A stretch of DNA of 64,000 nucleotides from Streptococcus ovis DSM 16829 (GTDB lineage: Bacteria > Bacillota > Bacilli > Lactobacillales > Streptococcaceae). The DNA lies in contig NZ_KB904574.1 in NCBI RefSeq assembly GCF_000380125.1, forward strand, positions 67,163 through 131,162, given 5' to 3'. Every line of letters starts with the position of its first letter. Position 1 is the stretch's first letter. The position numbers and the translations under genes are program-made. Below are positions 34,008-49,927 of the stretch, in pieces. The notes beneath the pieces were generated by a model. The model searched no databases and had not been told where the DNA came from. It saw only the letters and a program-made list of their open reading frames with translations.

Positions 34008-34286
34008 ATGAGTTCTGAAGCATTAGGAATGATTGAAACAAAAGGTTTGATCGGCTCAATTGAGGCAGCCGATGCGATGGTCAAGGCGGCAAATGTGACC
34101 TTGGTCGGTAAGGAGTTCGTCGGAGGCGGATTGGTGACGGTTTTGGTCCGTGGAGATGTAGGTGCGGTGAAAGCGTCAACGGATGCTGGAGCAGCAGCAG
34201 CGCAACGAGTTGGTGAGTTGGTATCTGTTCATGTGATTCCACGTCCACACTCAGAAGTGGAAAGCATTTTACCAGCAAAAAAATAA
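34008..34286 (+). CDS. BMC-H shell protein (PduA/EutM type), first copy
   Basis: A 92-residue hexamer-forming shell protein. The BMC fold starts [27 protein letters not shown] and ends [15 protein letters not shown]. Residue 37, which flanks the hexamer pore in PduA, is Phe, and the pore motif is GGG (39-41) rather than the common GSG. AAAAGGAGG ribosome site; an in-frame ATG at 33975 upstream has no homology support. First gene of the island, almost identical to the three tandem copies 15 kb downstream. Confidence 0.95.
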
Positions 34287-34312
34287 ATCAATGAAGAAGG
34301 AGTAGTTTTTCC

Positions 34313-35320
34313 ATGGGACAAAATATGAATAGTGGAAATCACGGGACAGCAGATCAACAAATGGCAGCATTGACCAAGAAATTCCAGTCGATTGGGATTC
34401 GAAGTGGGATTATTTCAGGCTTGTTTTATGGCCTGTATTCCTTCGTAGTCATGATTATCAGTGGGTTTGACCCCATTAAGTCAGCCGTAGGGATTTTTGC
34501 AGCCCCCTTTGTGATGGGAGGACTCAATGACTTTCTTGGTGGATGCGTCTTGCTAGCAAATGTTATCCGTACAGGCAAGTTTAAAGAACTAGGTAGAAGC
34601 TTAGCGACCAAACCAGGGAAGATTATGTTATTTGGATTTATCTTGGGTGGTCCAATCGCGAACGGTGCCTACCTTGTAGGTTTATCACTTGCAGGTGCGT
34701 TTGCCATTCCAGTGTCTGCAACAACGGCAGCTTTCGGTGCTTTGTTTGCAGCTATCTTCTTGAAACAAAAAATCACTCCTCGTGTTGGAGCAGGGATGCT
34801 CCTTTGTGTAGCAGGTGCGGTTATCCTGAACTTGGTAAAACCAGAAGGTGCAACAAACTTTACATTAGGAATTATCCTAGCAGTTTTTGCGGCTATTTGT
34901 TGGGGACTTGAGGGAACGATTTCAAGCTTTGGTGGTGCTATGTTGGATTCAGAAGTGGCTGTTACGCTTCGTCAAATCGTATCTGGCTTGATTCAAATGG
35001 TCATCATTGTACCAATGATTGGTGCAACTGGTTTGTTTACTCAATTGATTACAGCTCCTCTTCCAATGGTTCTCTTATTAGTATCAGGAACTCTGGTCGG
35101 AATCTCTTACACAACTTGGTATCAGTCAAATGCCATGGTTGGTACAGCAATTGGTATGTCATTGAACATTACCTATGCTTTCTGGGGAGTATTCTTCAGT
35201 ATCCTCTTCTTGGGACAAGCATTGACACCAACTATTGCAATTGGTTCGATCATTGTTATCCTAGGAGCAATCATTGTGACAACAAATCCATTGGATTTAT
35301 TTAGAAAGAGTGAGGTGTAA
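34313..35320 (+). CDS. DMT-superfamily (EamA) transporter of the choline island
   Basis: A 335-residue membrane protein with about ten predicted helices in two EamA repeats (about 40-175 and 190-325). The N-terminal 30 residues are hydrophilic. DMT proteins move small metabolites or cations. Inside a choline-degrading operon the plausible cargo is choline import or trimethylamine export, but the sequence alone does not decide. It lies between the first shell gene and a small unknown gene, within the operon. Confidence 0.8.
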   Translation: MGQNMNSGNHGTADQQMAALTKKFQSIGIRSGIISGLFYGLYSFVVMIISGFDPIKSAVGIFAAPFVMGGLNDFLGGCVLLANVIRTGKFKELGRSLATKPGKIMLFGFILGGPIANGAYLVGLSLAGAFAIPVSATTAAFGALFAAIFLKQKITPRVGAGMLLCVAGAVILNLVKPEGATNFTLGIILAVFAAICWGLEGTISSFGGAMLDSEVAVTLRQIVSGLIQMVIIVPMIGATGLFTQLITAPLPMVLLLVSGTLVGISYTTWYQSNAMVGTAIGMSLNITYAFWGVFFSILFLGQALTPTIAIGSIIVILGAIIVTTNPLDLFRKSEV

Positions 35321-35323
35321 GAA

Positions 35324-35608
35324 ATGGGTCTATTACCAGCAAGAACAGCTGTTTTGAATTACATGAGTACAGTAGAAGAGGCGGATGTTCATCAAGTGAT
35401 GGATGCCTTGAAATCACAGTATGGCAGTGAAAAACAATTTACAGTTCCACTGTTCATTGAGCACCTCATGTCCTTAGAGTGCAATGGATATGTGGAGCAA
35501 GTAGGCTATGATTTGGATGAAAGCCAACAATTAAGAGTATTGTACAAAATTAACGCTGACGGCTTAGATGCCGTGAAGAAATACATTTCAGCAGAACATA
35601 AAAGATAA
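35324..35608 (+). CDS. Small winged-helix-like protein of unknown function
   Basis: A 94-residue soluble protein starting 3 bases after the DMT transporter stop. The predicted pattern is helix-helix-helix followed by a GYVEQVGYDLDESQQLRVLYKI strand pair, which resembles a winged helix with its wing. I do not recognise a named family. It is nested between transporter and shell genes, so it should be co-expressed with the BMC; a regulatory or assembly role is only a guess. Confidence 0.65.
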   Translation: MGLLPARTAVLNYMSTVEEADVHQVMDALKSQYGSEKQFTVPLFIEHLMSLECNGYVEQVGYDLDESQQLRVLYKINADGLDAVKKYISAEHKR

Positions 35609-35623
35609 TTGGAGGAATGTTCA

Positions 35624-35920
35624 ATGAGATATTATGGTGGACAAGCCTTGGGCTTAGTCGAAACTGTAGGACTAGTACCTGCGATGGAAGCATGTGACAA
35701 GATGCTGAAAGCCAGCGATGTCAAACTAGTATCCTATGAAAATGTCGGCTCAACTCTCGTAACCGTCATGGTTGTCGGCGACGTAGCTGCTGTTCGTGCT
35801 TCTGTTGAAGCCGGGGCAGCTGCCGCTGCAGCGATTGGTAAATTGACTGCGCATAATGTGATGCCAAGACCAATCCCAAGCGTCGGAGATATTGTGTCAG
35901 TACACGATATTGACAACTAG
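35624..35920 (+). CDS. BMC-H shell protein, second type
   Basis: A 98-residue BMC-H protein: ALGLVETVGLVPAMEACDKMLKASDV, then VRASVEAGAAAAAAIGKL and a C-terminal tail VGDIVSVHDIDN. The pore-loop motif is GST in place of GSG. ATG 35624 was chosen for its GGAGG site; an in-frame ATG at 35609 is less well placed. It differs clearly from the PduA-like copies and should form a distinct hexamer in the shell. Confidence 0.93.
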   Translation: MRYYGGQALGLVETVGLVPAMEACDKMLKASDVKLVSYENVGSTLVTVMVVGDVAAVRASVEAGAAAAAAIGKLTAHNVMPRPIPSVGDIVSVHDIDN

Positions 35921-35937
35921 ATATAAAGGAGAATACC

Positions 35938-36261
35938 GTGAAAAGATATCAAGCAATTGGGGCGATTGAAACATTTGGTTTAGTCTTTGCTTTGGAAGCA
36001 GCAGATGCCATGGTAAAAGCCTCTGAAGTAGAAGTTGTTGGTTATGAAAACGTTGCTTCTGGTTATATCTCTGTCATTGTTCAGGGTGAAACAGAAGCCT
36101 GCAAAACAGCCGTAGACGCTGGTGTGAAAGCTGTGGAAACAATGGGCGCTGAAGTATACAGCCATGTTGTTATTCCAGGGCCACACGAAGATCTTAGCAA
36201 AATTATTGATCGTTACTCATTGTCCGTTCTATTACCAGAAAGTCCAGAAGCCGAAGCATAA
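35938..36261 (+). CDS. BMC-H shell protein, third type, with C-terminal extension
   Basis: A 107-residue BMC-H protein with a GTG start and AAAGGAG site. The BMC fold runs to VVIPGPHEDLSKII, then a 20-residue tail RYSLSVLLPESPEAEA extends it. The pore loop reads ASG. It follows the second shell gene by 17 bases and precedes the inactive aldehyde dehydrogenase paralogue. Confidence 0.92.
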   Translation: MKRYQAIGAIETFGLVFALEAADAMVKASEVEVVGYENVASGYISVIVQGETEACKTAVDAGVKAVETMGAEVYSHVVIPGPHEDLSKIIDRYSLSVLLPESPEAEA

Positions 36262-36276
36262 GAAAGTGTGTAGAGT

Positions 36277-37623
36277 ATGTTGTATATTGACAAAGATTTA
36301 GCATCTATCCAAGAAATCCGAAACTTACTCTTGAATGCTCAAACTGCTTTTGCTCAATTACAAAAATTAACTCAGGCTGACTTGGATCAGTATAGCGCCA
36401 CTTTGATACAGCGTGTTAAAAGAGATGGGCCGGCAGCCATCAAGGAATTCGTTGCCAAAAATCAGTTTGGTAATGAAGAGGATGAATGGTTCCTGTGCCA
36501 AGAATTTCTAAAACGCTTTGATGAAACCATACAAAAGGAAGTGTTTACTGGAATTATTGCAGGTAGTAGCGAGGAAAAAGTGATTGAAATCGGGGTTCCT
36601 TTAGGTGTGGTAGGTGTTTTGTTACCTGCCTATCCAACCTATACCCTGCTGGTCAATTTGTTATTACTGGCTATCAAATCTGGTAATGCGATGGTACTCG
36701 TTGCCAATCAATCCACTAAACAATCAACGATTGATGCGATTGGAAAATTGCTAGAGATGTTAGATGACATGGGATATCCCGAAGGTAGTCTTTCACTGGC
36801 TGAGACAGCAAATGACGCTGGTGTTTCAGAGTTATTACTAAGCGATAAATTATCACTGCTCATCAATATCGGCTGTCCAGAATACATTAACAATGACTTC
36901 CGGACGAATACCCCTCTAATTTATGGAGGAGAATCTTCGGGGCCAGTATTTATTGAACGAACAGCAGATTTGGAAAAGGCCGTCAAAGATGTCCTTCACT
37001 CTAGAAGTTTTGACAATGGAATCCTGCCAGGATCTGAGCAATTTCTCGTGACAGAGTATATCATCTCTGACCGTATCAAACAGATTATGGAAGCCAACGG
37101 AGGTTATATTTTAACTGAAGAAGATACCGCAAAATTAATTGCATTTCTAAAGGCTTCTGAAAAAAATATAATCAATAGTTATCATGGAAAATCAGCTATT
37201 TGGCTAGCAAAAATGGCTGGTATTGCTGTTCCAGAAGATACGCAAGTTCTCGTTTCAGTACAAGAATATATGAACGATGAAGACTTTTTCAATAAAAAGT
37301 TACTTTGTCCGATTATCGTTTTGTATCGTGAGCCTGATTGGACTTTGGCTTGCGTCAAATGTATGAGCATTTTATCAGAGTTACGGATGGGACATACCTT
37401 GACGATTCACTCAGCAGACTGGAAAGTCATCAAAGAGTTTGCAATGGTCAAAGCTGTTGGACGAATTGTTGTCAATGCACCGACAGCTTGTACTGCGACG
37501 GGTGTCAAATCGAGTTTTGCACCGTCATTGATATTGGGCGGTATTACCACAGGACGTGGGAACCGTTCAGAAAATATTACTCCAAGACACCTGACTTATA
37601 CTCGTCAAGTAGGTTTTGAGTAA
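36277..37623 (+). CDS. Aldehyde dehydrogenase paralogue lacking the catalytic Cys
   Basis: A 448-residue protein aligned over most of its length with the EutE/PduP-type enzyme at 46467. It shares the DLxSIQEIRNLL start, the FIERTADLEKAV segment and FDNG.. SEQ around the active site. Where the active enzyme has TICASEQ, this one has ILPGSEQ, so Pro251 stands at the catalytic Cys position. The cofactor-loop segment ATGGPGM is also lost (NIGCPEY). It lacks the C-terminal encapsulation peptide. It is probably a structural or regulatory pseudoenzyme. The ribosome site is weak. Confidence 0.88.
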   Translation: MLYIDKDLASIQEIRNLLLNAQTAFAQLQKLTQADLDQYSATLIQRVKRDGPAAIKEFVAKNQFGNEEDEWFLCQEFLKRFDETIQKEVFTGIIAGSSEEKVIEIGVPLGVVGVLLPAYPTYTLLVNLLLLAIKSGNAMVLVANQSTKQSTIDAIGKLLEMLDDMGYPEGSLSLAETANDAGVSELLLSDKLSLLINIGCPEYINNDFRTNTPLIYGGESSGPVFIERTADLEKAVKDVLHSRSFDNGILPGSEQFLVTEYIISDRIKQIMEANGGYILTEEDTAKLIAFLKASEKNIINSYHGKSAIWLAKMAGIAVPEDTQVLVSVQEYMNDEDFFNKKLLCPIIVLYREPDWTLACVKCMSILSELRMGHTLTIHSADWKVIKEFAMVKAVGRIVVNAPTACTATGVKSSFAPSLILGGITTGRGNRSENITPRHLTYTRQVGFE

Positions 37624-37630
37624 GGGGACA

Positions 37631-37684
37631 AGACATAAAATGTATAGTCCGAGCAGATGGGAGTTCATTCCACATAAAATGTCT
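37631..37684 (+). other. Stem-loop with two 11-bp palindromes before cutC
   Basis: ACATAAAATGT occurs at 37633-37643 and 37672-37682. The outer arms AGACAT and ATGTCT pair, followed by an AAA/AAA internal loop and ATGT/ACAT. This is the longest intercistronic gap (96 bases) in the first half of the operon and may stabilise or process the cutC message. Confidence 0.45.
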
Positions 37685-37719
37685 GCAGTTCTATATAACA
37701 AAGAGAGGAAAGAATACCT

Positions 37720-40260
37720 ATGGATATGAATGAATTTACAGCCAAATTGGAAGCGGCTACAAAACAGCTTAGCGAAGCAGAACGTGCGTCGCTCGTAAAA
37801 ATTTTCCAAAGTGTTTCAGAAGATATTAAAAAACCAGAAGTAAAATCAGCACCAGTATTGGTCAGCGAAGGAACAGAAGTGCCTGATGGCATCACACCTC
37901 GTTTGCAAGCTTTGAAAAACCAATACCTCCATGCACGTCCAACAATTTCTTTGCTTCGTGCCATTAACTTGACACGTGTGTCAAAAGAAAATGAAGGAAT
38001 GCCAAAAGCTGTTCTTCGTGGTACAGCCTTTAAAGAATTTTGTAAAATTGCACCACTGGTTATCCAAGATCACGAACTCTTGGTTGGTGCACCAAATGGT
38101 GGTCCACGTTGGGGTGCCTTCTCACCAGATATTTCATGGCGTTGGTTGCGTGATGAATTAGACACAGTATCTACTCGTCCACAAGACCCATATGATTTGT
38201 CAGAAGAAGACAAGAAAATCTTAGTAGAAGAAATCTTCCCATATTGGACAGGTAAATCTGTTGATGAAGCGTGTGAATCTCAATACCGTGAAGCAGGTGC
38301 TTGGGAATTGTCTGGTGAATCTTTTGTATCAGACTGTTCTTACCACGCACAATCTGGTGGTGGTGACTCCAACCCAGGTTACGACGTTGTTGGTATGAAG
38401 AAAGGGATGCTCGATATCAAGGCAGAAGCTGAGGCTCACTTGGCAGAATTGGATTATGCAAATCCAGATGACCTTGAAAAGATTTACTTTTATAAAGGAC
38501 AAATCTTGACAGCAGAAGGTGTCATGATTTACGCACAGCGTATGTCTGATTATGCAGCTCAATTGGCAAGCAAGGAAACAGATCCAAAACGCAAAGCAGA
38601 ATTGGAAATGATTTCTCGTGTCAATGCGAATGTACCAGCTCATAAACCAGAAACTTTCTGGGAAGCAATGCAATATTTGGTAACCATCCAACACTTGCTT
38701 CTTTGTGAAGAAAACCAAACAGGTTTGTCTATCGGTCGTGTGGACCAATACATGTATCCATTCTACAAGAAAGATATCGAAGAAGGCCGTATGACAGATT
38801 TCCAAGCATTTGAAATTGCTGGTTCTATGTTCATTAAGATGTCAGAAATGATGTGGTTGACATCAGAAGGTTCTTCTAAGTTCTTCGCAGGTTACCAACC
38901 ATTCGTAAACATGTGTGTGGGTGGTGTAACACGTGAAGGTCGTGATGCGACAAATGACTTGACTTACCTCTTGATGGATGCTATTCGTCACGTGAAAGTA
39001 TACCAACCAACCCTTGCAACACGTATCAATAACAAATCTCCTCGTAAATACTTGAAGAAAATTGTAGATGTTGTTCGTGCGGGTGTCGGATTCCCTGCTT
39101 GCCACTTCGATGATAGCCATATCAAGATGATGCTGGCAAAAGGTGTATCCATGGAAGATGCGCGTGACTACTGTTTGATGGGATGTGTTGAACCACAAAA
39201 ATCAGGCCGTCTCTACCAATGGACATCTACTTCATATACACAATGGCCAATCTTGATTGAAACAACTCTTAACCGTGGTGTACCACTCTGGTATGGTAAA
39301 CCTGTAACACCAGACATGGGACCACTTGATCAATACAAGACCTTTGAAGAATTTGAAGCAGCAGTTAAAGAAACTATCAAGTATGTAACAAAATGGACTT
39401 CTGTGATGACTGTCATTTCACAACGTGTGCAACGCGAATTGGCACCGGTTCCATTGATGTCTATGATGTACGAAGGTACGATGGAAAATGGTCGTGGTGT
39501 GAAATCTGGTGGTGCGATGTATAACTTCGGTCCAGGTGTTGTTTGGTCAGGTTTGGCAAACTACGCAGACTCAATGGCTGCTATCAAGAAATTAGTCTTT
39601 GAAGATAAGAAATATACTCTTGAAGAATTGAACAAAGCATTGGTAGCTGATTTTGAAGGCTATGAACAAATCAGAGCAGACTGCTTGGCAGCACCAAAAT
39701 ATGGTAATGACGATGACTATGTAGATTACTTTGCATCTGATATCATCGAATTTACAGAAGAAGAACACCGTAAATACAAGACATTGTACTCTATCTTGAG
39801 TCACGGTACTTTGTCTATTTCAAACAATACACCACTTGGTCAAATTACAGGGGCATCTGCTTCAGGTCGCCGTGCTTGGGCACCATTGTCAGATGGTATC
39901 TCTCCAGACCATGGTATGGATACAAAAGGCCCAACAGCGATTATCAAGTCTGTATCTAAGATGGCCAATGAAAATATGAACATTGGTATGGTACATAACT
40001 TCAAGATTATGGCTGGTTTGCTCGATACACCACAAGGGGAAGAAAGTTTGATTACTCTCTTGAGAACAGCAAGTATTCTCGGAAATGGTGAAATGCAATT
40101 CAACTACTTAGACAACTCAATTTTGATTGATGCACAAAAACATCCAGAAAATTATCGTGATTTGATTGTACGTGTAGCTGGATACAGTGCCTTCTTCGTT
40201 GAATTGTGTAAAGATGTACAGGATGAAATTATTTCACGTACTGTATTGACAAAATTTTAG
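37720..40260 (+). CDS. cutC: Choline trimethylamine-lyase, glycyl radical enzyme
   Basis: CutC cleaves choline to trimethylamine and acetaldehyde inside the microcompartment. The 846-residue protein carries the residues known for choline lyase at the same numbers as in the characterised Desulfovibrio enzyme: Tyr208, Asp216, Phe395, Cys489 and Glu491 in GCVEP, Thr502, Tyr506, and the radical Gly821 in RVAGYSAFF. This pattern separates it from glycerol/diol dehydratases and pyruvate formate-lyase. The first 35 residues, including [12 protein letters not shown], look like an amphipathic N-terminal encapsulation segment. Codon use is biased, suggesting high expression. Confidence 0.97.
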
Positions 40261-40314
40261 TGAATAAGAAGTCGTTGCTGGAAAAGTGACGAGAATGATG
40301 GTTAGGAAGTAGTG

Positions 40315-41304
40315 ATGGGAATGCAGAAGAAGAAACATGAGACACGAATTAATGTATTCAATGTCCAAAAATACAATCTTTATGACGGCCCTGGGATTAG
40401 AACCATTGTGTTTTTCAAAGGCTGTCCGATGCGTTGCAAGTGGTGTGCCAATCCAGAAGGGCTTGAGTTTGGTTCCAATGTCATGTACAAAGAAACCTTA
40501 TGCAAGCCGTATAACTCGTGTGCGGCAACTTGTCCACTTGGTCAAATCTGTTTTTCCTATAGAAATCAAGAAAACCCTATTCCTTTTGACTACGCTGACA
40601 AGGAGCATCCAATTGATATCCGCAAGTACAAAAAACGCCTTCCTACAAAGGAAGATATCAAGGGTTGTCCTGAGGGTGCTCTGACTGTCGCGGGTGAATC
40701 CAAAACGATTTCTGAACTCATGTCCATCATTCACGAAGACGATGCTTTTTATGACATGTCAGGCGGAGGAGTGACCTTGTCAGGTGGTGAGTGTCTGGCT
40801 CAGCCAGAAGGCGCTATCGCTTTATTACGGGCTTGCAAAGAAGACGGGCTTAACACGGCTGTGGAAACGGCTGGTCATGTACCAAACAAAGTATTCCAAG
40901 CAGTCGCACCGTATGTAGACCTCTTCCTCTTTGACATGAAGCATATGGATTCGAAGAAGCACAATGAATGGACAGGGGTTGGAAATGAACGCATTCTGAC
41001 CAATCTCAAATACGTCATTGAATCAGGTTATAATATTAAAATTCGCATGCCAATGCTGAAGGGAATCAATGATAGCCAAGAAGAAATCCAAGCGATTATT
41101 GAATTTCTCCTTCCTTACAAGGATTATAGTAATTTCCAAGGAATTGACCTATTACCATATCATAAATTAGGGGTTAATAAATACCATCAGCTAGGATTGG
41201 AATACCAAATCGAAGGGGATCCATCACTTAGCCAATATGATTTGGACCGAATTGAATCCTATATTTTAGCCTATGATTTTCCAGTAACAGTTGTCAAACA
41301 CTAA
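40315..41304 (+). CDS. cutD: Choline TMA-lyase activating enzyme (radical SAM)
   Basis: A 329-residue glycyl-radical activase that uses S-adenosylmethionine and an electron to place the radical on Gly821 of CutC. The radical-SAM cluster motif is C37PMRC41KWC44. A ferredoxin-like insert follows with Cys in ETLCKPYNSCAATCP and KGCPEGAL. GGGVTLSGGE (about 145) is the typical activase SAM-binding segment. ATG 40315 has an AGGAAG site; GTG 40312 and ATG 40321 are alternatives. It follows cutC, as in all cut clusters. Confidence 0.96.
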   Translation: MGMQKKKHETRINVFNVQKYNLYDGPGIRTIVFFKGCPMRCKWCANPEGLEFGSNVMYKETLCKPYNSCAATCPLGQICFSYRNQENPIPFDYADKEHPIDIRKYKKRLPTKEDIKGCPEGALTVAGESKTISELMSIIHEDDAFYDMSGGGVTLSGGECLAQPEGAIALLRACKEDGLNTAVETAGHVPNKVFQAVAPYVDLFLFDMKHMDSKKHNEWTGVGNERILTNLKYVIESGYNIKIRMPMLKGINDSQEEIQAIIEFLLPYKDYSNFQGIDLLPYHKLGVNKYHQLGLEYQIEGDPSLSQYDLDRIESYILAYDFPVTVVKH

Positions 41305-41328
41305 TACGGAACAAAAGGAGGTGCAGTC

Positions 41329-41679
41329 TTGATAGAGGGAATTGGAAAGATTGAGCGGATTATTCAAGAATCCGTTCCAGGAAAGCAGATTACCTTAGCG
41401 CATCTGATTGCTGCGCCCATCCAGGCTGTTTACCAAAGTTTAGGAGTTGAAGAGTTAGGGGCGATTGGAATTCTTGCCTTAACCCCCTATGAAACGGCCA
41501 TCATTGCAGCAGACATTGCAGGAAAAGCAGCAGATGTGGATATTTGCTTTGTCGATCGATTTACCGGTTCGGTGATGTTTAGTGGAGATGTGCAGAGTGT
41601 TAAAACAGCTTTGCAATCGATTCTAGATTATTTCAAAGAGCAACTGGAGTTTTCAGTTGTGAATGTGACGCAATCATGA
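41329..41679 (+). CDS. EutS/PduU-like permuted BMC-H shell protein
   Basis: A 116-residue shell protein of the circularly permuted BMC-H class: IGKIERIIQESVPGKQITLAHLIAAP is the EutS/PduU-type N-terminal region that forms a small beta barrel over the pore. GAIGILALTPYETAIIAADIAGKAADV is the BMC core. It uses a TTG start with a strong AAAAGGAGG site. Its end overlaps the next gene by 4 bases (ATGA). Confidence 0.9.
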   Translation: MIEGIGKIERIIQESVPGKQITLAHLIAAPIQAVYQSLGVEELGAIGILALTPYETAIIAADIAGKAADVDICFVDRFTGSVMFSGDVQSVKTALQSILDYFKEQLEFSVVNVTQS

Positions 41680-42125
41680 AGAAGCGCATGATGTTGATTG
41701 GTCCGAATGACCAAGATAAAAAAAAACTTGTCGCATTACTAGAGGAAGGCAAACAGATTCCTCCTGTGCAGTCGATGGTTTACCTTGATAAGACCATTCA
41801 AGTACCGAGTTCCTATCTAAGAGGCTCGGGGATGCTGAAGCATATTATTGCTACACAACAAAATGCAAGCGCTATCTTAATGTTGTTGTCGCCCGAACAA
41901 TCCTTTCGAATTTACTCTCCTAATTTTGCAAAAGTGTTTCGCATACCGATTGTTGGGATTATATTGACAAAGCAAGGGTGCCACACTTTTGAGGACATTA
42001 AACGCTGTCGGAGTGAATTAGAAGAAGCAAAGATTGAACGCATCCAAGTGCTAGATTTAGAAAATGATGCGCACTGTCAACAACTCTTACACACTATAAG
42101 TCTTATTGAAGAAGGAATGATATGA
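41676..42125 (+). CDS. EutP/PduV-like protein with degenerate GTPase motifs
   Basis: A 149-residue protein that follows EutP/PduV in its middle part (QSMVYLDKTIQVPSSYL, AILMLLSPEQSFRIYSPNFAKVFRIPIVGIILTK). The N-terminal P-loop reads G9PNDQDKKK, so the invariant Gly before Lys15 is Asp14 and the following Ser/Thr is Lys. The TKxD guanine motif reads TKQG. GTP binding is therefore doubtful. It overlaps both neighbours by 4 bases, showing tight translational coupling with the EutS-like and alcohol dehydrogenase genes. Confidence 0.85.
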   Translation: MKKRMMLIGPNDQDKKKLVALLEEGKQIPPVQSMVYLDKTIQVPSSYLRGSGMLKHIIATQQNASAILMLLSPEQSFRIYSPNFAKVFRIPIVGIILTKQGCHTFEDIKRCRSELEEAKIERIQVLDLENDAHCQQLLHTISLIEEGMI

Positions 42126-43252
42126 AAACACAAGAATTTAGCGTAGGACCTAAATTTATCATGGGACATCATTCCACAGAAGAGCTTTCGAAATTAACTG
42201 TCAAAAAAGCCTATATCATCTGTGATCCCTTTATGGCACAAAGTCGCATGGTAGAGGCGGTTTTGAAAGAACTAATGAAAGCAGGCGCGGAGACAAAAGT
42301 CTTTTCCAAGGTTGTCCCAAATCCTACCATTGAAGTGATTGCTGAAAGTGTTTCAGAAATCAAAGAATTTAAACCAGATATTGTCGTTGCTTTAGGTGGC
42401 GGGTCAGCCCTTGATTCAACTAAGGCAGTTCTGAAAGTTTACACTGAATCTGAAAAAGTGGCTAAGCCAAAAATGATTGCCATTCCAACAACAAGTGGTA
42501 GTGGTAGCGAGATTACAGCTTTTGCCGTTATTTCAGATCCATTAAAAAATGAAAAATTTGTCATTATTGATGACTCCATGGTCCCAGATATGGCGATTTT
42601 GGATACTTACTTCACTATGAGTGTTCCACCAGCTGTCACCGCGGATGCTGGAATGGATGTCCTAACCCATGGTTTAGAAGCTATTGTGGCAAATGGAGCG
42701 ACTGATTTTTCAGATGCTTGTGCCGAAAAAGCCATTACCTTGAGTTATAAATATCTTTTTGAAACCTATCAAAATGGTCAAAATCAATTTGCTCGAGAAA
42801 AAATGCATAATGCATCAGCGATTGCAGGTATTGCCTTTAATAACGCTGGCTTGGGAATCTGTCACAGTCTTTCGCATGCAATAGGAGCTTTCTTCCATGC
42901 ACCACATGGCCGTATCAATACCATGCTCCTTCCACATGTGATTGCCTTCAACGCCTCTTTAAAAGAGAAGGAAGAAACAGCTGTTACAAGACGATATGCA
43001 CAAGTAGCCAATCTACTGGGACTCTACGGACCAACGCCAACACATGGCGTTCGGGCATTGAACTATGCCATCACTAGTTTGGCGAAGAAAATGAGGATGC
43101 CAATGACGATTGAAGGGTTAGGAATTGATCGTCATGAATTTGAGAAAATGATTCCTGAAATGGCAAAACGTGCCCTTGCTGACGCTTGTACACCAGGGAA
43201 CCCACGTTCTGTCACAATCGAGGACCTTGAGGCGATTTATCGCGCCTTGTAA
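42122..43252 (+). CDS. cutO: Iron-containing alcohol dehydrogenase of the choline BMC
   Basis: A 376-residue group III alcohol dehydrogenase (EutG/CutO-like) that reduces acetaldehyde to ethanol and recycles NAD inside the shell. It shows GGGSALDSTK (about 95-104), TTSGSGSEIT (about 123), and metal-binding residues in DAGMDVLTHGLEA and the late HSLSHAIGAFFHAPHG region with three His. Standard family length. No obvious extra targeting peptide is seen. It starts within an ATGA overlap of the EutP-like gene. Confidence 0.92.
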   Translation: MKTQEFSVGPKFIMGHHSTEELSKLTVKKAYIICDPFMAQSRMVEAVLKELMKAGAETKVFSKVVPNPTIEVIAESVSEIKEFKPDIVVALGGGSALDSTKAVLKVYTESEKVAKPKMIAIPTTSGSGSEITAFAVISDPLKNEKFVIIDDSMVPDMAILDTYFTMSVPPAVTADAGMDVLTHGLEAIVANGATDFSDACAEKAITLSYKYLFETYQNGQNQFAREKMHNASAIAGIAFNNAGLGICHSLSHAIGAFFHAPHGRINTMLLPHVIAFNASLKEKEETAVTRRYAQVANLLGLYGPTPTHGVRALNYAITSLAKKMRMPMTIEGLGIDRHEFEKMIPEMAKRALADACTPGNPRSVTIEDLEAIYRAL

Positions 43253-43305
43253 TCAATGGAAAACTTGAGAGGAATCATCAACTATCGGTAAAAGGAAGTA
43301 GTAAG

Positions 43306-43956
43306 ATGAAATTTTTAACCGAAGATGATTTACGAGTCGAGTATCGTCAAGTTCCATTTGACACTTTTACCATCAAAAAAGCACAACGGTTGACGCCTGG
43401 AGCACGAACGTTTCTAGCAGACCGTAAAGTGAAGGTCATTGATGAAAATGATGTGACACCACCAAGCAAGCCAAGAAACAGTTCTCAGCTAGTTGCAAAA
43501 CAAGAGGGGATTCAACAAGAAACGCTGATTTTTCAAACTGATTCAGATTGGTTGGATCTCCGTTGTGAATTCTTGCAGACGGCAGTAGACTTGGCGTCGA
43601 TTGAGTTGGCTTTGGCACAGGAATTACATGCATTAGAGCGTTTTTTGGCAACGGCTCTGTCAAATGGCGAATGTATCTTGCCACCGATTTCTACAGGACA
43701 ATTAGCTGAAGAAATGGTAGACAAAGCATTTGTCCATGGCAATCTTTCCAATGTTGGAATGTTTTTGCAAACAAATAATGGTCGCATCTTGACCAAACTC
43801 TATCCGCTTTATTTTCACTTAGAGAGAAGGATGGAAGGAAGTCAATGGCAAGAAGAGACGAATTTAAGTGAGTTACTGAATCGTCTTGGGCAACTTATTG
43901 CCCACTACTTAAAAACAAGAGAGGAAGTGAACAATGATGTCACAACAGTTACCTAA
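43306..43956 (+). CDS. EutT-like (cobalamin adenosyltransferase-like) protein
   Basis: A 216-residue protein whose N-terminal segment (KFLTEDDLR...RLTPGARTFLADRKVKVID) resembles EutT. The C-terminal helical region (LAQELHALERFLATAL...AHYLKTREE) fits the adenosyltransferase helical bundle. The Cys-rich metal site of EutT is absent: only two isolated Cys are seen. The pathway here uses a glycyl radical, not B12, so a classic adenosyltransferase role would be redundant. Similar genes are found in other cut clusters; their function is unclear. It overlaps eutJ by 23 bases. Confidence 0.7.
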   Translation: MKFLTEDDLRVEYRQVPFDTFTIKKAQRLTPGARTFLADRKVKVIDENDVTPPSKPRNSSQLVAKQEGIQQETLIFQTDSDWLDLRCEFLQTAVDLASIELALAQELHALERFLATALSNGECILPPISTGQLAEEMVDKAFVHGNLSNVGMFLQTNNGRILTKLYPLYFHLERRMEGSQWQEETNLSELLNRLGQLIAHYLKTREEVNNDVTTVT

Positions 43957-44776
43957 AACCTGTGATCAATACGTTGAAGAATTTGAACGTGCTGAAAAAA
44001 ATCCAATCAAGGGTACCGGTCCGGTGTATTTGACAGGAGTGGATTTAGGAACTGCCTATATTGTTTTGGTAGTCTTGGATGAGAACAAGCAGATTGTTGC
44101 GGGAGCTCACAGACCTGCTTCAGTTATTCGAGATGGGATGGTTGTAGACTACATCGGAGCTATTCGGATTGTCCGTGAGTTAAAAGAATCCCTAGAAGAA
44201 CAACTAGGAGAAGAGTTACTGTATGCAGCAGCCGCGATTCCGCCGGGAACAGATTTGTTGGATGGTGGAGCAATTAAAAATGTTGTGCAAGGAGCTGGAT
44301 TTGAATTAACAGCTTTGTTAGATGAGCCAACAGCTGCCAATACTATTGTGGGACTACAAAACGGTGCTATCGTAGATATCGGTGGAGGAACGACTGGTAT
44401 TTCTATCTTAAAAGATGGAAAAGTCATTAAATGTGTGGATGAAGCAACTGGTGGAACCCATTTTACCTTAGTCGTAGCAGGCGCTTATCAAATGAGTTTT
44501 GAAGAAGCTGATGCCTACAAACGTGATCCGAAACACCACAAAGAACTGCTTAGCGTCTTAAAACCAGTCATCGAAAAAGTTGCTTCCATCATTAAACGAA
44601 GCATCGAGGGAATGGATGTGGATGTGATTTACTTGGTCGGCGGGACAAGTTGTTTAGCTGGTATCGAGGAAATTATCGAGAAAGAAACCCACATCAAAAC
44701 CATCAAACCAATTAACCCAATGTTTGTGACTCCAATCGGCATTGCAATGAATTGCAGTCAAGACATTCTCTATTAG
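43934..44776 (+). CDS. eutJ: EutJ-family chaperone-like ATPase
   Basis: A 280-residue actin/Hsp70-fold protein of the EutJ family. Phosphate 1 motif GVDLGTAYIVLVVLD (about 35-49), phosphate 2 VDIGGGTTGISIL (about 144-156), adenosine motif LVGGTSCLAGIEE (about 235-247). EutJ proteins are thought to assist cargo folding or shell assembly; no substrate-binding domain of DnaK type is present. Two adjacent ATG codons (43934, 43937) follow AGAGGAAG. It overlaps the EutT-like gene. Confidence 0.92.
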   Translation: MMSQQLPKTCDQYVEEFERAEKNPIKGTGPVYLTGVDLGTAYIVLVVLDENKQIVAGAHRPASVIRDGMVVDYIGAIRIVRELKESLEEQLGEELLYAAAAIPPGTDLLDGGAIKNVVQGAGFELTALLDEPTAANTIVGLQNGAIVDIGGGTTGISILKDGKVIKCVDEATGGTHFTLVVAGAYQMSFEEADAYKRDPKHHKELLSVLKPVIEKVASIIKRSIEGMDVDVIYLVGGTSCLAGIEEIIEKETHIKTIKPINPMFVTPIGIAMNCSQDILY

Positions 44777-44789
44777 AAAAGAGGCAGAT

Positions 44790-45086
44790 ATGCTTGTTGC
44801 AGAATTAGTTGATACAATTTGGGCAACTAGAAAGTCCGAAGCATTAAACGGTGTCAAGTTCCTATTGGCAGAAGTCAAGGGAGGAAGCCGAGCGGGTGAA
44901 CTTCTTGTTGTTGTAGATATGATTGGTGCAGGCATTGGCGACCGGGTCATCATTGCGACTGGATCTGCAGCTCGACGAATGATGGGGGATGACCAAATGC
45001 CAGTTGATGCAGCAGTCATCGGGATTATCGATGAAAATTATGATGAAGTTAAAAAACAAAATGGAAAAATAGAACGATTCTCATAA
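44790..45086 (+). CDS. eutN: EutN/CcmL-type BMC vertex protein
   Basis: A 98-residue BMC-P protein forming the pentamers that cap shell vertices. It starts MLVAELVDTIWATRKSEAL, has the family VVVDMIGAGIGDRVIIATGSAAR segment (about 40-62) and ends with VIGIID. It is the only vertex protein gene in the island and therefore should be essential for closing the shell. Confidence 0.93.
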   Translation: MLVAELVDTIWATRKSEALNGVKFLLAEVKGGSRAGELLVVVDMIGAGIGDRVIIATGSAARRMMGDDQMPVDAAVIGIIDENYDEVKKQNGKIERFS

Positions 45087-45094
45087 CTGAACTC

Positions 45095-45134
45095 GGGTGT
45101 TCGCACATGATATCACCGTTCATGTCCCACACCC
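45095..45134 (+). repeat. Intercistronic stem-loop before eutQ
   Basis: Outer arms GGGTGT (45095-45100) / ACACCC (45129-45134) and inner arms ACATGA (45105-45110) / TCATGT (45120-45125) form a two-part hairpin between the vertex gene and eutQ. The left flank GAACTCGGGTGTTC resembles GAACTCGGATGTTC at 56891-56904, so this may be a member of a dispersed genomic repeat. Confidence 0.55.
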
Positions 45135-45158
45135 TCGTATCTAAAAGAAGGAGAAGAT

Positions 45159-45797
45159 ATGGCAAAATTAATTACAGCAAAAGATGTTTTGCAATGCCAC
45201 GAAGCTGGTCAAACAGTTTGTTACCTTGAACCAGGAACAATCGTCACACCAGCGGCTCGTGATGAAGCAAAAAAACATGGAATTTGCTTTGAAGATGGTA
45301 AAGAAGTATGCTTATCAAAAGGGTCTTCAGAAAAAGGACTGGATGGGATTACTTCTGATGAATTATTGTGCCTATTGAAAAAATTATTAGTAGCAGACGA
45401 CGCAACGCCTGCCAAAGAAATTCCACCTTATCGTTGTGTATCTCATGCAAATGGGTTGAAAGTCGTAAAAGGTGGAACCGTTCGGATGGATGATTTTGAC
45501 ACCGGTACACCAGGTGCTAAAGTTGGTTTCCAAGAATTAGTCAGCAAAGACGAATCCAAAATGAGTGCAGGTTTCCTAACTATTGATCACTCAAAATTTG
45601 CTTGGAAACTCCCATACGAAGAGATTGACTACGTCATTTCAGGAACCGTTTCGGTTGAAATTGATGGGCAAACTTATGTTGGCCGTGCAGGAGATGTACT
45701 CTTTGTACCAGCTGGCTCAGATGTTATCTGGGGTTCACCAGACAATGCCAAAATTTTCTATACTACGTACCCTTCAAACTGGTCTGATTTGATGTAA
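45159..45797 (+). CDS. eutQ: EutQ-like cupin protein
   Basis: A 212-residue EutQ-family protein. N-terminal region MAKLITAKDVLQ... with VTPAARDEAKKHGI (about 29-42); C-terminal cupin barrel from about residue 95, with DYVISGTVSVEIDGQTYVGRAGDVLFVPAGSDVIWG as the core motif. EutQ has been reported to have acetate kinase activity in ethanolamine use, which would turn PduL-made acetyl phosphate into acetate and ATP; here that is inference. AGAAGGAG ribosome site. Confidence 0.9.
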   Translation: MAKLITAKDVLQCHEAGQTVCYLEPGTIVTPAARDEAKKHGICFEDGKEVCLSKGSSEKGLDGITSDELLCLLKKLLVADDATPAKEIPPYRCVSHANGLKVVKGGTVRMDDFDTGTPGAKVGFQELVSKDESKMSAGFLTIDHSKFAWKLPYEEIDYVISGTVSVEIDGQTYVGRAGDVLFVPAGSDVIWGSPDNAKIFYTTYPSNWSDLM

Positions 45798-45812
45798 TGA
45801 GAGGACTCCACT

Positions 45813-46445
45813 ATGAAGGCATTAGGAATGATTGAAACCTACGGTTTTATCGGTTCCGTAGAAGCAGCTGATGTGATGCTAAAATGTGCAGATGTTTCTC
45901 TTTTAGGAACCGAAAAAGTTAGCGATGGCTTATACTACATCAGTATTACTGGTGATGTTGGAGCCGTTAAAACAGCTGTCGATGCGGGTGCTGAAGCCGT
46001 TCGACGCCTTGGAGCAAATTGTTTACAAGGTGCCCACGTTATTCCACGCCCAGACGACCAATTAGCGGATCTCCATCATCCAATCACTGTGTCAAAAGAA
46101 ATCACTCAAGAAGAGCAGGTTGTGCAAAAAGAACCGATTGTACAAGCAGAAGTACCTGTTCCAGTAGAGCCTGTTGAAAGCGAAGAAGATATAGAACAAT
46201 TAGAACCTGTATCTGAACCAGATACTATAGTTGCTGATTCTTCGGTAGAAACGACCGCAAACAACTTGACCTTTAAAGAGTACAAGAGAAAAGTTGATCG
46301 GGCGCGTGCGGCAGAACTAAGAGAAATGGTAGCACAGAATCCTCGTATTGAGATTGGAGAAGAAGCCTTGAAGAACTTAGTCCGACGCGAAATGATAGCA
46401 CTTCTTTTGGAAGATTTCAAGGAACAAGATAAAGAAAACAAGTAA
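45813..46445 (+). CDS. BMC-H shell protein with long C-terminal extension (EutK/PduK-like)
   Basis: A 210-residue protein. Residues 1-90 are a BMC-H domain (ALGMIETYGFIGSVEAADVML ... HVIPRPDDQLADL) with pore loop SDG. Residues 91-150 form an acidic Pro/Glu/Val linker. Residues 150-210 form a charged helical domain (LTFKEYKRKVDRARAAELREMV ... RREMIALLLEDF). EutK and PduK also carry C-terminal domains, some nucleic-acid-binding. Whether this tail binds cargo, nucleic acid or another shell face is unknown. Confidence 0.88.
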   Translation: MKALGMIETYGFIGSVEAADVMLKCADVSLLGTEKVSDGLYYISITGDVGAVKTAVDAGAEAVRRLGANCLQGAHVIPRPDDQLADLHHPITVSKEITQEEQVVQKEPIVQAEVPVPVEPVESEEDIEQLEPVSEPDTIVADSSVETTANNLTFKEYKRKVDRARAAELREMVAQNPRIEIGEEALKNLVRREMIALLLEDFKEQDKENK

Positions 46446-46466
46446 AAGAAAATTTTTGGGGGTCGG

Positions 46467-48110
46467 ATGATGAAAACATTAGACGTTGATCTCTGTTCAA
46501 TCCAAGAAGCACGAGATCTTGTAAGGAATGGGAAACAAGCTGCCAATATAATAGCGACTTTCTCAGATGAACAAATTGATGCCATACTAAAAAATATTGT
46601 CAAGGCAGTTGGGGCAAATGCCTACTACCTAGCAGATATGGCAGTGGAAGAAACAGGCTTTGGGAAAATTACAGATAAAGCCTACAAAAATTATGCAGCA
46701 GCGCATTTACTTTACGATGAAATCAAAGACATGCAAACATCAGGTGTTCTTGACTTTGATGAAGCGAAAAAAGTATTTACTGTAGCAGAACCAATGGGAC
46801 TTTTGCTAGGAATTACACCTTCAACAAATCCAACATCGACGGTGATTTTCAAGAGTATGATTGCCATCAAGTCACGCAATGCAATCGTGTTTGCGCCACA
46901 TCCATCAGCTAAACGGTGTAGCAATGCAGCGGTTGATATTGTGAGAAAAGCAGCGGTGGAAGCTGGCGCACCAGAACATATTGTCGGTGCAGTTTCTAAC
47001 CCATCACTTGCAGCAACCAATGAATTGATGAACGCGAAAGATGTTTCCATGATTATCGCAACGGGCGGTCCTGGCATGGTCAAGGCAGCCTACAGTTGTG
47101 GGAAGCCAGCTATCGGTGTAGGAGCGGGAAATTCTCCAGCTTATATCGAACGCACTGCAAATGTGGAAAAAGCCATTCGCTCAATTGTAGCTTCCAAAAC
47201 CTTTGACAATGGTACAATTTGTGCATCTGAGCAATCCATTATCTGTGAAGAAGTCAACAAAGATGAAGTGATTCGTGAATTGACGAAGCAAGGTTGTTAC
47301 ATGATGACCAAGGAAGAAACAGACAAGGTCTGTGAGTTACTGTTCCGTGGCAATTCACATGGTTGCAATCCAGCTATGAATCCAAAATTTGTTGGTCGTC
47401 CTGCAGTTGAAATTGCAGAAGCAGCTGGTATCAACGTACCAAAAGATACCAAGATTTTGGTTGGTCCACAAGCCGGTGTTGGTCAAGGAAATCCTTTATC
47501 ATTTGAAAAATTAACAACAGTACTTGGTTTCTATGTTGTGAAAAATTGGGAAGAGGCTTGTGCACTCAGTATTCGCCTTCTCCAAAACGGAATTGGCCAT
47601 ACCATGAGTATGCACACAGAGGATCCAGATATGATTCTGCGCTTCTCTTCTAAACCAGCTTCTCGTATTTTGATCAATACAGGTGGTAGCCAAGGAGGAA
47701 CCGGTATTTCAACTGGTTTACCAGTTTCCTTCACACTTGGATGTGGAACAAGCGGTGGTAGTTCTGTTTCAGATAACCTTTCACCAAAACATTTGGTCAA
47801 TATCAAGACAGTTGCTTATGGCGTCAAAGATGTCACAACCTTAATTGACGACCCTGTTTTCCAATCATTGCCAAAATTAGCAATGCCTGCTGAAGCACAA
47901 CCAGATGCTATTGCATCCGCTAGTTTACATACAGGACGAAGAGGTCCAGTTTATCAAACAAATGATTTTTTGAAACAGACACCACAGTCTATTCAAGAAA
48001 AGTATGAACAAGGAACGACTTCTCAGGCGGTACCTGCTGCAACAACTGCTACGGGTGTTGACAATGAGGCTATTGTTCGTGAAATCTTATCTGCACTTCG
48101 ACAACAATAA
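46467..48110 (+). CDS. cutF: CoA-acylating acetaldehyde dehydrogenase (EutE/PduP type) with C-terminal encapsulation peptide
   Basis: A 547-residue enzyme converting acetaldehyde, CoA and NAD to acetyl-CoA and NADH. Catalytic Cys252 lies in FDNGTICASEQ; GITPSTNPT (about 115) and ATGGPGMVKAAY (about 199) form the cofactor site. After the catalytic core (to about residue 470) a flexible Ala/Thr-rich linker leads to DNEAIVREILSALRQQ (532-547), an amphipathic helix typical of encapsulation peptides. That peptide recurs at the end of the 64-residue protein encoded next. Two adjacent ATG codons (46467, 46470) are possible starts. Confidence 0.94.
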   Translation: MMKTLDVDLCSIQEARDLVRNGKQAANIIATFSDEQIDAILKNIVKAVGANAYYLADMAVEETGFGKITDKAYKNYAAAHLLYDEIKDMQTSGVLDFDEAKKVFTVAEPMGLLLGITPSTNPTSTVIFKSMIAIKSRNAIVFAPHPSAKRCSNAAVDIVRKAAVEAGAPEHIVGAVSNPSLAATNELMNAKDVSMIIATGGPGMVKAAYSCGKPAIGVGAGNSPAYIERTANVEKAIRSIVASKTFDNGTICASEQSIICEEVNKDEVIRELTKQGCYMMTKEETDKVCELLFRGNSHGCNPAMNPKFVGRPAVEIAEAAGINVPKDTKILVGPQAGVGQGNPLSFEKLTTVLGFYVVKNWEEACALSIRLLQNGIGHTMSMHTEDPDMILRFSSKPASRILINTGGSQGGTGISTGLPVSFTLGCGTSGGSSVSDNLSPKHLVNIKTVAYGVKDVTTLIDDPVFQSLPKLAMPAEAQPDAIASASLHTGRRGPVYQTNDFLKQTPQSIQEKYEQGTTSQAVPAATTATGVDNEAIVREILSALRQQ

Positions 48111-48374
48111 GGAGGCGATTCGATGGAAGAATTAGAAGAACTATTTTATCAGGCGATTGATCAATTAAGTGGTCAATCTCTTGAGGAAAATAAGGAAGTA
48201 CAGCTAGATGCCGTTGGATCTGCTAGCGTGCATGTAGGCCAACCATCAGCAAGTGAAGCCGACATTGATAACGAAGCGGTTGTTCGTGAAATTTTATCTG
48301 CACTTCGACAGCAATAAGGAGGGGATTCGATGGAAGAATTAGAAGAATTATTTTATCGAGTGATTGATCAACTT
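48060..48374 (+). repeat. 207-bp tandem duplication across the aldehyde dehydrogenase/pduL junction
   Basis: Positions 48060-48167 and 48267-48374 are 108-bp direct repeats, identical at about 94 positions by hand alignment. The period of 207 bp is a multiple of three. Each copy contains an encapsulation peptide coding end, a TAAGGAGG ribosome site and a peptide coding start, so duplication created a complete small gene between the two old ones. Confidence 0.9.
48123..48317 (+). CDS. 64-residue protein with two encapsulation peptides
   Basis: The N-terminus MEELEELFYQAIDQL matches the first 15 residues of the following PduL (13 of 15). The last 16 residues DNEAVVREILSALRQQ match the C-terminal peptide of the preceding aldehyde dehydrogenase (15 of 16). 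The middle 33 residues are a polar linker rich in Ser, Glu, Ala and Val with no domain. Ribosome site AAGGAGG, 12 bases after the dehydrogenase stop and 12 bases before pduL. Both ends are amphipathic helices. It lacks any catalytic module and may be a linker between the two enzymes and the shell. I know no described family for it. Confidence 0.85.
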   Translation: MEELEELFYQAIDQLSGQSLEENKEVQLDAVGSASVHVGQPSASEADIDNEAVVREILSALRQQ

Positions 48375-49043
48375 GGTAGTGAGTCAACTCAACCTCCAGT
48401 TGTTGTCCCTCACACAGCAAGTAACCAACCAGCAGTAGCATCCATCACCTCGCAAAAGAAACTGGATGTAGACGGTTTTGCAATCCCACTTGGAGTGTCC
48501 AATCGCCACATTCATTTGTCTCAAGCGGATGCTGATGTATTGTTTGGACCTGGTTATGAATTTCAAAAGTTAAAAGATTTGTCTCAAATCGGTCAATTTG
48601 CGATGCGGGAATGTCTCTTTGTAGCAGGACCAAAAGGTGTCATAGAAAAAGTTCGTATTTTAGGACCTGTACGCAGTCAAACTCAAGTTGAAATATTAGC
48701 ATCTGATTGTTTCAAATTAGGAATAGACGCTCCACTTCGTCTATCAGGAGATCTTGCAGGTTCACCTGGTTGTACCTTGATAGGACCAAAAGGTTCTGTA
48801 CAATTGACGAAGGGATGCATCGTTGCGAAACGCCATATCCATATGTCACCAGTTGATGCACAAGAATTTGGCGTTGTAGACAATCAGGTTGTTTCGTTGG
48901 AATGTCCAGGAGAACGCGGAGGAATTCTGAATAATGTAACGATACGCGTTCATGAGACATTTACGTTAGAGTGTCATTTAGATACAGAAGAAGCCAATGC
49001 CTTAGGTATATCGGCCAAAAACAAATTAAAACTAATAAAATAA
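48330..49043 (+). CDS. pduL: Phosphate propanoyl/acetyltransferase PduL with N-terminal encapsulation peptide
   Basis: A 237-residue PduL that converts acetyl-CoA and phosphate to acetyl phosphate and recycles CoA inside the shell. Residues 1-15 (MEELEELFYRVIDQL) are an amphipathic encapsulation helix, followed by a 30-residue linker. The two PduL beta-barrel repeats carry zinc ligands His60 and His62 (VSNRHIHLS), His169 and His171 (AKRHIHMSP) and His216. Spacing agrees with known PduL structures. AAGGAGG ribosome site identical in context to that of the 64-residue gene. Confidence 0.94.
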   Translation: MEELEELFYRVIDQLGSESTQPPVVVPHTASNQPAVASITSQKKLDVDGFAIPLGVSNRHIHLSQADADVLFGPGYEFQKLKDLSQIGQFAMRECLFVAGPKGVIEKVRILGPVRSQTQVEILASDCFKLGIDAPLRLSGDLAGSPGCTLIGPKGSVQLTKGCIVAKRHIHMSPVDAQEFGVVDNQVVSLECPGERGGILNNVTIRVHETFTLECHLDTEEANALGISAKNKLKLIK

Positions 49044-49059
49044 AAGGTAGGTAATACAT

Positions 49060-49332
49060 ATGTCATCAGAAGCATTAGGAATGATTGAAACAAAAGGTTT
49101 GATTGGCTCTATTGAAGCAGCCGATGCCATGGTCAAAGCAGCCAATGTAACTCTCATTGGCAAAGAACGCGTTGGTGGCGGATTGGTGACTGTTATGGTA
49201 CGCGGTGATGTCGGTGCTGTGAAAGCAGCGACAGATGCTGGAGCAGCCGCAGCACAACGTGTTGGTGAATTGGTATCTGTCCATGTGATTCCACGTCCAC
49301 ACACAGAAGTTGAAACAATCTTAGCAAAATAA
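49060..49332 (+). CDS. BMC-H shell protein (PduA type), tandem copy 1
   Basis: A 90-residue hexameric shell protein, nearly identical to the copies at 49353 and 49649. Residue 37 beside the pore is Arg in this copy; the pore motif is GGG (39-41). The C-terminus is TILAK. It follows pduL by 16 bases. Multiple gene copies near the operon end should raise the supply of the bulk shell tile. Confidence 0.95.
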
Positions 49333-49352
49333 AGCAAAGGAAGGTAACGAAC

Positions 49353-49628
49353 ATGCATTCAGAAGCATTAGGAATGATTGAAACAAAAGGTTTGATTGGC
49401 TCTATCGAAGCAGCCGATGCGATGGTTAAAGCAGCCAATGTAACCTTGATTGGTAAAGAACATGTTGGTGGCGGCTTGGTCACTGTCATGGTACGCGGTG
49501 ATGTAGGCGCTGTGAAAGCAGCAACAGATGCTGGAGCAGCAGCGGCACAACGTGTTGGTGAATTGGTATCTGTACACGTGATTCCACGCCCACATACAGA
49601 AGTCGAAACAATTTTGGCGCATAAATAA
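49353..49628 (+). CDS. BMC-H shell protein (PduA type), tandem copy 2
   Basis: A 91-residue shell tile differing from copy 1 at residue 2 (His), residue 37 (His) and the C-terminus (LAHK). The rest of the BMC fold is identical. AAAGGAAGG ribosome site, 20-base spacing from copy 1. Confidence 0.95.
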
Positions 49629-49648
49629 CATAAAGGTAGGTAATACAT

Positions 49649-49927
49649 ATGTCATCAGAAGCATTAGGAATGATTGAAACAAAAGGTTTGATTGGCTCTA
49701 TTGAGGCAGCCGATGCGATGGTTAAAGCAGCCAATGTTGTGTTAGTTGGCAAAGAGCATGTTGGTGGCGGATTAGTCACTGTCATGGTACGCGGTGATGT
49801 CGGTGCTGTGAAGGCAGCGACAGATGCTGGAGCAGCCGCAGCCCAACGTGTTGGTGAATTGGTATCTGTACACGTGATTCCACGTCCACATACAGAAGTC
49901 GAAACAATTTTACCAAAACACAACTAA
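49649..49927 (+). CDS. BMC-H shell protein (PduA type), tandem copy 3
   Basis: A 92-residue shell tile with Val31/Val33 replacing Thr/Ile of the other tandem copies, His37 at the pore flank and C-terminus LPKHN. It is the last BMC gene before the operon terminator. Confidence 0.95.

Follow-up and report, generated by a model that had tools for sequence, protein, structure and literature searches.

A putative enzyme-free adaptor carrying two encapsulation peptides in the choline microcompartment operon of Streptococcus ovis

Between the genes for an acetylating acetaldehyde dehydrogenase (AldDH) and the phosphotransacylase PduL, the choline-utilisation microcompartment operon of Streptococcus ovis DSM 16829 holds a reading frame of 64 codons whose two ends are copies of the encapsulation peptides (EPs) of these neighbouring enzymes. 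Its product may be a lineage-specific, enzyme-free, bivalent EP adaptor that cross-links the cargo core, ties the core to the shell, or does both. From the sequence and from analogy with studied EPs, this reading is given a probability of about 0.45. The stretch of DNA analysed, hereafter the window, comprises 64,000 nucleotides of contig NZ_KB904574.1; an earlier note, made from its letters, had proposed the frame as a two-peptide gene.

The host operon

The operon occupies about 33975-49927 of the window. The earlier note's assignment to a choline bacterial microcompartment (BMC) locus is borne out by CutC and CutD, both of which lie above their NCBIfam equivalog cut-offs (Table 1), and genes of BMC-H, EutN, EutP and EutQ type accompany the cut genes. 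According to the available excerpts, GRM1 loci combine a CutC whose N-terminal extension is short with a second AldDH copy, and GRM2 loci have a CutC extended by about 350 residues (PMC6325248, PMC8217296). Here a CutC of 846 residues with a short extension is found together with CutD, shell genes and a weak second AldDH copy, as in GRM1 choline compartments; because of this length and short extension, the label GRM2, with its long form of CutC, was dropped for the locus. The second AldDH-like gene (36277-37623) has a weak Aldedh match (E 7e-7), in keeping with the report of a second, putatively inactive copy in loci of types GRM1A and GRM1B (excerpt of PMC8217296).

Several other features of the operon deserve mention in their own right. 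The three BMC-H copies 3' of PduL share about 90% DNA identity (0.895-0.91) and differ by 2-5 amino acids, and the corresponding stretches of relatives carry one to three copies at this place, one copy being cut near a contig end (L131). Another BMC-H protein (45813-46445) has its BMC domain at residues 3-80 and a tail of about 130 residues whose end looks EP-like by eye (EEALKNLVRREMIALLLEDFKEQ), with a similar end in two relatives (L132, L133). A 216-residue operon protein (43306-43956) has no Pfam match and evolves fast, at 35-62% identity across 12 operons. Between 47800 and 49100, promoter-like matches number 4 against 3.0 expected by chance, one of them on the plus strand, inside PduL, and the two terminator-like sites are both on the minus strand.

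Table 1. Positions in the window of the operon genes and duplicated segments discussed in the text
Feature	Position	Strand	Evidence or remark
CutC choline trimethylamine-lyase	37720..40260	+	TIGR04394 1528.9 bits, cut-off 1050, match from residue 58
CutD activating enzyme	40312..41304	+	TIGR04395 432.1 bits, cut-off 360
AldDH (acetylating acetaldehyde dehydrogenase)	46467..48110	+	TIGR02518 E 1.6e-207; PF00171; tail compared with 12 relatives
AldDH tail segment EAQPDAIASASLHTGR, source of part of the linker	47892..47939	+	0/2000 shuffles reach score; offset 303
Upstream repeat copy (AldDH end, spacer, small-ORF start)	48058..48164	+	88.8% identity at lag 207
64-residue two-EP ORF	48123..48317	+	N-terminal EP residues 1-19, linker 20-47, C-terminal EP 48-64
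Linker segment EVQLDAVGSASVHVGQ, of AldDH origin	48195..48242	+	shuffle test, offset to AldDH tail
Downstream repeat copy (small-ORF end, spacer, PduL start)	48265..48371	+	88.8% identity at lag 207
PduL phosphotransacylase, N-terminal EP	48330..49043	+	PF06130 E 4.5e-75; aligned with 12 relatives
Three tandem BMC-H shell genes, just 3' of PduL	49060..49927	+	PF00936 E 3.8e-30 (first gene)

A reading frame with an encapsulation peptide at each end

The 64 codons of the small open reading frame (ORF) run without interruption, 12 bp from the end of AldDH and 12 bp from the start of PduL. The Shine-Dalgarno-like motif AAGGAGG stands 5' of its start and likewise before the start of PduL. The last 17 codons of AldDH and the N-terminal end of PduL we take to be EPs on the basis of descriptions of these two enzymes. 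As the earlier note had recognised, the frame starts like PduL (it begins MEELEELFYQAIDQLSGQS, and PduL begins MEELEELFYRVIDQLGSES) and finishes like AldDH (it ends IDNEAVVREILSALRQQ, and AldDH ends VDNEAIVREILSALRQQ). EP-bearing BMC cargo is characterised by a terminal amphipathic helix, some 15-20 residues long, with homology to a known EP; both ends of the small ORF are homologous to EPs of the same operon, and the location inside a BMC operon, between AldDH and PduL, is one where EP-bearing cargo is expected. A folded cargo or enzyme domain was not found in the 64 residues, for which a Pfam search up to E = 1 gave no family and an NCBIfam search only matches with E values of 0.013 and 0.043, far below the cut-offs.

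The hydrophobic moment of the N-terminal EP is high (P 0.003 against shuffles); that of the C-terminal EP is not unusual (P 0.14), and its parent in AldDH is alike in this respect (0.13). All parental charges are kept in the C-terminal EP, and in the N-terminal EP Arg10 has been lost, a place held by Gln in 3 of 12 relatives (G075, G086, G221). As a control for chance resemblance, 7624 ORFs of 30-200 amino acids from 93 loci were each given a score against the EPs of the locus in which they lie. The small ORF was the sole high scorer on either EP, at 73 and 76, with runners-up at 37 and 33. These loci comprise 13 operons and the best 80 of at least 581 named-record loci; one locus is counted twice (L013 and L046), and two others (L048 and L112) belong to the same species.

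Origin across the gene junction

The earlier note had described a 207-bp direct repeat over the gene junction. A direct repeat does exist there, but it is 107 bp long and 88.8% identical, and 207 bp is its period; the 207-bp length was accordingly rejected. Nor is the linker between the two peptides merely polar, as had been stated, for residues 25-40 align with the AldDH tail with a score that none of 2000 shuffles reaches. Scores of 48, 49, 49 and 45 were obtained against the tails of the genome's own AldDH and those of the relatives G052, G043 and G015, with 0/2000 shuffles in each case; across 13 AldDH tails, p was at most 0.001 in ten, 0.015 in one, and 0.14 and 0.59 in the other two. The PduL linker was rejected as the source of the segment, its score of 16 being equalled by 67% of shuffles.

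The offset to the parent sequence is 303 for the linker segment and 207 for the C-terminal EP, a difference of 96 bp (32 codons), from which we infer an in-frame deletion of that length inside the copy. A second conserved stretch of the AldDH tail, L-x-QTPQ-x-IQ (47967-47996), lies between the catalytic domain and the EP. It is present in all 13 tails, from this genome and 12 relatives, and falls in the part that is missing from the small ORF. As the simplest history we infer that the duplication first spanned more than 207 bp and that an internal in-frame deletion followed. The origin by tandem duplication over the AldDH-PduL junction, which the earlier note had proposed, is thereby supported by repeat and linker, the duplicated unit having been longer and having lost an internal part afterwards.

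Placement of the copy on this lineage

A codon-model tree that included three relatives places the small copy on the branch of its own genome, 12.2 lnL units ahead of the next place; it attaches about 56% of the branch length back from the tip. When the segments were placed singly on a fixed backbone, the own branch was best by 6.8 (C-terminal EP), 5.6 (linker) and 1.2 (N-terminal EP) lnL units, with join depths, as fractions from the tip, of 0.0, 0.57 and 0.79, respectively. These placements support a duplication on this genome's own lineage, clearly for the C-terminal EP and the linker segment and weakly for the N-terminal EP alone. The C-terminal EP and the linker are by dS nearest to the genome's own AldDH. 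For the N-terminal EP, 34 of 42 DNA positions match in the genome's own PduL, in G052 and in G015, and 35 in G075; its dS is 0.38 (G015), 0.54 (G052) and 0.58 (G043) to relatives against 0.78 to its own PduL. Over 18 codons this nearness may be noise, yet it is compatible with a mosaic origin.

Distribution in relatives

PduL matches occur in 47 of 284 genomes of the genus, in sets holding one genome per species. Those of this genome and 12 others exceed 300 bits, with matches that begin at the N-terminal EP; the remaining 34 score below 200 bits and match from about residue 39. Absence was counted over the 12 relatives above 300 bits, with the 34 lower-scoring genomes set aside. AldDH and PduL are direct neighbours in all 12, and the small ORF is absent from every one of them within the 16-19.8 kb surrounding each PduL. 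This comparison scanned 2041 ORFs in 13 operons, those of the relatives being the same operon with a few genes lacking or truncated. To the earlier note, absence from all related genomes would have marked the frame as a neutral by-product, and it is absent from 12 of 12; the nearest genome in the genus set is 81% identical at obg, so that this absence tells little about recent history.

Searched with the small ORF, 10 of the 284 genomes give a match, and the short frame occurs only in S. ovis, the other matches being AldDH or PduL ends. Among 395 genomes of the order, five show any match and the whole copy is again found in this genome only. A plasmid search for further copies gave no match, and of 28 stretches fitting the pattern in viral contigs none was confirmed. 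One candidate (G441; 22% identity, E 0.004) was rejected as probably due to chance: its frame is on the minus strand without EP-like ends, and its neighbours resemble, by eye, trp and cysteine-synthase genes rather than a BMC operon. The small ORF is thus known from one genome.

Divergence and selection

According to the earlier note, both peptides had been kept while their DNA diverged, mostly at third positions. This describes the C-terminal EP well, since 6 of the 8 nucleotide differences in its 17 codons are synonymous, but not the N-terminal EP, where 5 synonymous and 6 non-synonymous differences are mixed. Between the ORF and the enzyme copies, dS is close to 0.78 (0.784 for the C-terminal EP, 0.777 for the N-terminal EP and 0.784 for the linker segment), and dN is 0.054, 0.152 and 0.267 in the same order, or 0.15 overall. 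The ratio dN/dS between the repeat copies, a check that the note had suggested, is 0.07, 0.20 and 0.34, respectively, and 0.19 in all. It is based on 51 codons, the linker segment having been picked because it is alignable, and 13 of the 64 residues, namely the start Met and 12 that have no clear counterpart, are omitted from these tests.

Selection on the protein, which the earlier note had suggested, finds support if the copies aged equally but not without that assumption. When branch lengths were left free, the test did not reject omega = 1 for the small branch (p = 0.22). In a second test the times of the small and enzyme branches were fixed as equal, because both copies are equally old since their common ancestor. 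Under equal times the small branch has an omega of 0.10, against a background of 0.07 for the same enzyme segments, and omega = 1 is rejected with p = 9e-7 (2dlnL 24.1) overall, with p = 3e-4 (13.0) for the EPs only, and with p of 0.02 (C-terminal EP), 0.003 (N-terminal EP) and 8e-4 (linker) for single segments. If the small branch is set at a half, a quarter or a tenth of the enzyme branch, p becomes 1e-4, 0.016 and 0.71. In a simplified form of the test, with the other parameters fixed, 0 of 120 null simulations reached the observed statistic of 24.7.

In the core of the EPs, 27 of 28 positions hold a residue that also occurs among the 12 relatives, against a mean of 22.5 under neutrality (P 0.00045). 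Neutral drift was simulated from the present ORF in 1500 runs per setting. Under substitutions alone the frame stayed open in 2.7% of runs at 0.325 substitutions per site and in 0.7% at 0.6; with an assumed 0.04 indels per substitution these values fall to 0.07% and 0%. Given equal ageing, the small ORF looks preserved by selection. The tests show constraint from the time when the copies separated, not from the time when the ORF came into being, and if its origin was recombinational the constraint could predate the ORF and belong to the enzymes.

Such an origin is the strongest competitor to the adaptor reading, albeit an unlikely one, with odds of about one in four that the placement of single segments left unchanged. 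An unequal crossing with the homologous operon of an unsampled sister lineage would have joined the PduL start of one lineage to the AldDH tail of the other, the copies having already diverged under constraint in the enzymes, and would have left a recent, functionless ORF as its scar. The near-equal dS of the three segments is what a single between-lineage divergence would give, the N-terminal EP is as near to the PduL of several relatives as to its own, the segments join the own branch at unlike depths, and with the nearest genome at 81% an unseen sister is possible. However, this history requires an unsampled donor and, in addition, both a joint and a separate 96-bp deletion that are each in frame, whereas duplication in situ does without a donor. 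Moreover, apart from this genome's own, no PduL in the 284 genomes exceeds 82% protein identity.

Proposed function

For the adaptor, the following sequence of events is envisaged. Tandem duplication over the AldDH-PduL junction would have placed a duplicated PduL start ahead of a duplicated AldDH tail and in frame with it, and the 96-bp in-frame deletion would then have shortened the duplicated copy. The product would consist of two helices joined by a flexible linker, the first amphipathic and of PduL type, the second of AldDH type, both being predicted from the parent peptides. It would probably be translated along with the rest of the operon, starting from a ribosome site of its own. By analogy with published EPs, each helix may bind the partners of its parent, such as EP bundles or the groove between shell hexamers. 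With two different EPs on one chain, the peptide could connect regions of the core rich in AldDH with others rich in PduL, or the core with the shell, and such bridging might tune condensation, cargo ratio or packing.

Published observations make such steps conceivable. Metabolosome EPs form trimeric bundles and condense, and two or three serial EPs on a monomer lead to liquid foci in E. coli, more strongly with more copies (PMC12339742, excerpt). PduL binds only tessellating PduA, the proposed site of its EP is the groove between hexamers, and one EP of the PduL dimer is interpreted as being free for other partners (PMC11157265, excerpt). A bolder version, that a new gene was born by fusing docking peptides, was kept by selection and represents the first natural glue with intrinsic EP valency, free of enzyme, for AldDH and PduL clusters and the shell, is more tentative than the adaptor reading itself.

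A peptide with these ends could also be made and act as a decoy, competing for EP-binding sites on shell or core and so limiting how much AldDH and PduL is loaded. Both parental EPs are present on it and cargo is not, and EP binding is reported to alter shell assembly, giving sheets rather than nanotubes (excerpt of PMC11157265). A decoy is nevertheless improbable, as one EP would suffice for a competitor and, with times set equal, an omega of 0.05 suggests constraint on the AldDH-derived linker segment as well. Ranking just behind it, and improbable too, is the idea that the amino acids are irrelevant and that the frame is kept open for the passage of ribosomes from AldDH to PduL. AldDH stands next to PduL in 80 of the 93 loci, 13 having no close AldDH, and in 79 of these 80 pairs the gap is -11 to 43 bp, which suggests coupling; in the window it is 219 bp, within which the ORF leaves 12-bp gaps on both sides and has Shine-Dalgarno sites. 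Yet a mere translation spacer explains neither the low dN in the EPs nor why residues stay within their natural range. Finally, a wrong merging of two strains or reads is very improbable even for a feature seen in a single draft genome of 24 contigs, given completeness of 100, contamination of 0.34, copies that differ by 11% over the 107-bp repeat, and a novel joint and a deletion that are both in frame.

Comparison with known systems

The putative adaptor resembles EP-tagged BMC cargo enzymes in that its EPs are homologous copies from the same operon, and differs from them in lacking an enzyme or known domain and in carrying two different EPs on one short chain. In published work, as far as the excerpt of PMC12339742 extends, EP multivalency comes from oligomeric enzymes or from design. 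The engineered EP2 and EP3 versions of mNeonGreen described there are alike in having more than one EP per chain, an intrinsic valency predicted to network EP-bearing cargo; they are synthetic repeats of one EP, that of PduP, at one end of a reporter, whereas in the small ORF two different EPs flank a linker and the arrangement is natural. The same excerpt regards the EP-Crimson design, with one EP per tetramer subunit, as more reflective of all characterised EP-fused enzymes. The PduL dimer of the Pdu compartment similarly presents two EPs, of which one is interpreted as shell-bound and the other as free (PMC11157265, excerpt), but these are identical and are brought together by dimerisation of an enzyme, in contrast to two different EPs on a single chain.

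Tying of the core to the shell by short peptides has also been proposed for CcmN, PduM and residues 1-37 of PduB (excerpts of PMC9132943 and PMC12339742). The PduB segment belongs to a shell protein (PMC12339742, excerpt), unlike the small ORF. Homology to a known core-to-shell linker family of the CcmN or PduM type was not found in the small ORF, which lacks a Pfam family (E = 1) or NCBIfam cut-off match and whose two ends are both copies of cargo EPs. It would work, if at all, like an EP linker, outside the CcmN and PduM families by these sequence tests. Among the titles and abstract openings retrieved from the open-access PMC literature, no natural enzyme-free two-EP protein is named.

Implications

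The small ORF would allow the binding of each EP to be tested apart from enzyme oligomerisation. If the adaptor reading is true, evolution has produced a stand-alone condensation linker, and with it a ready 64-residue tool for tuning the packing of compartments. It would also be a clear case of the birth of a gene from linear motifs.
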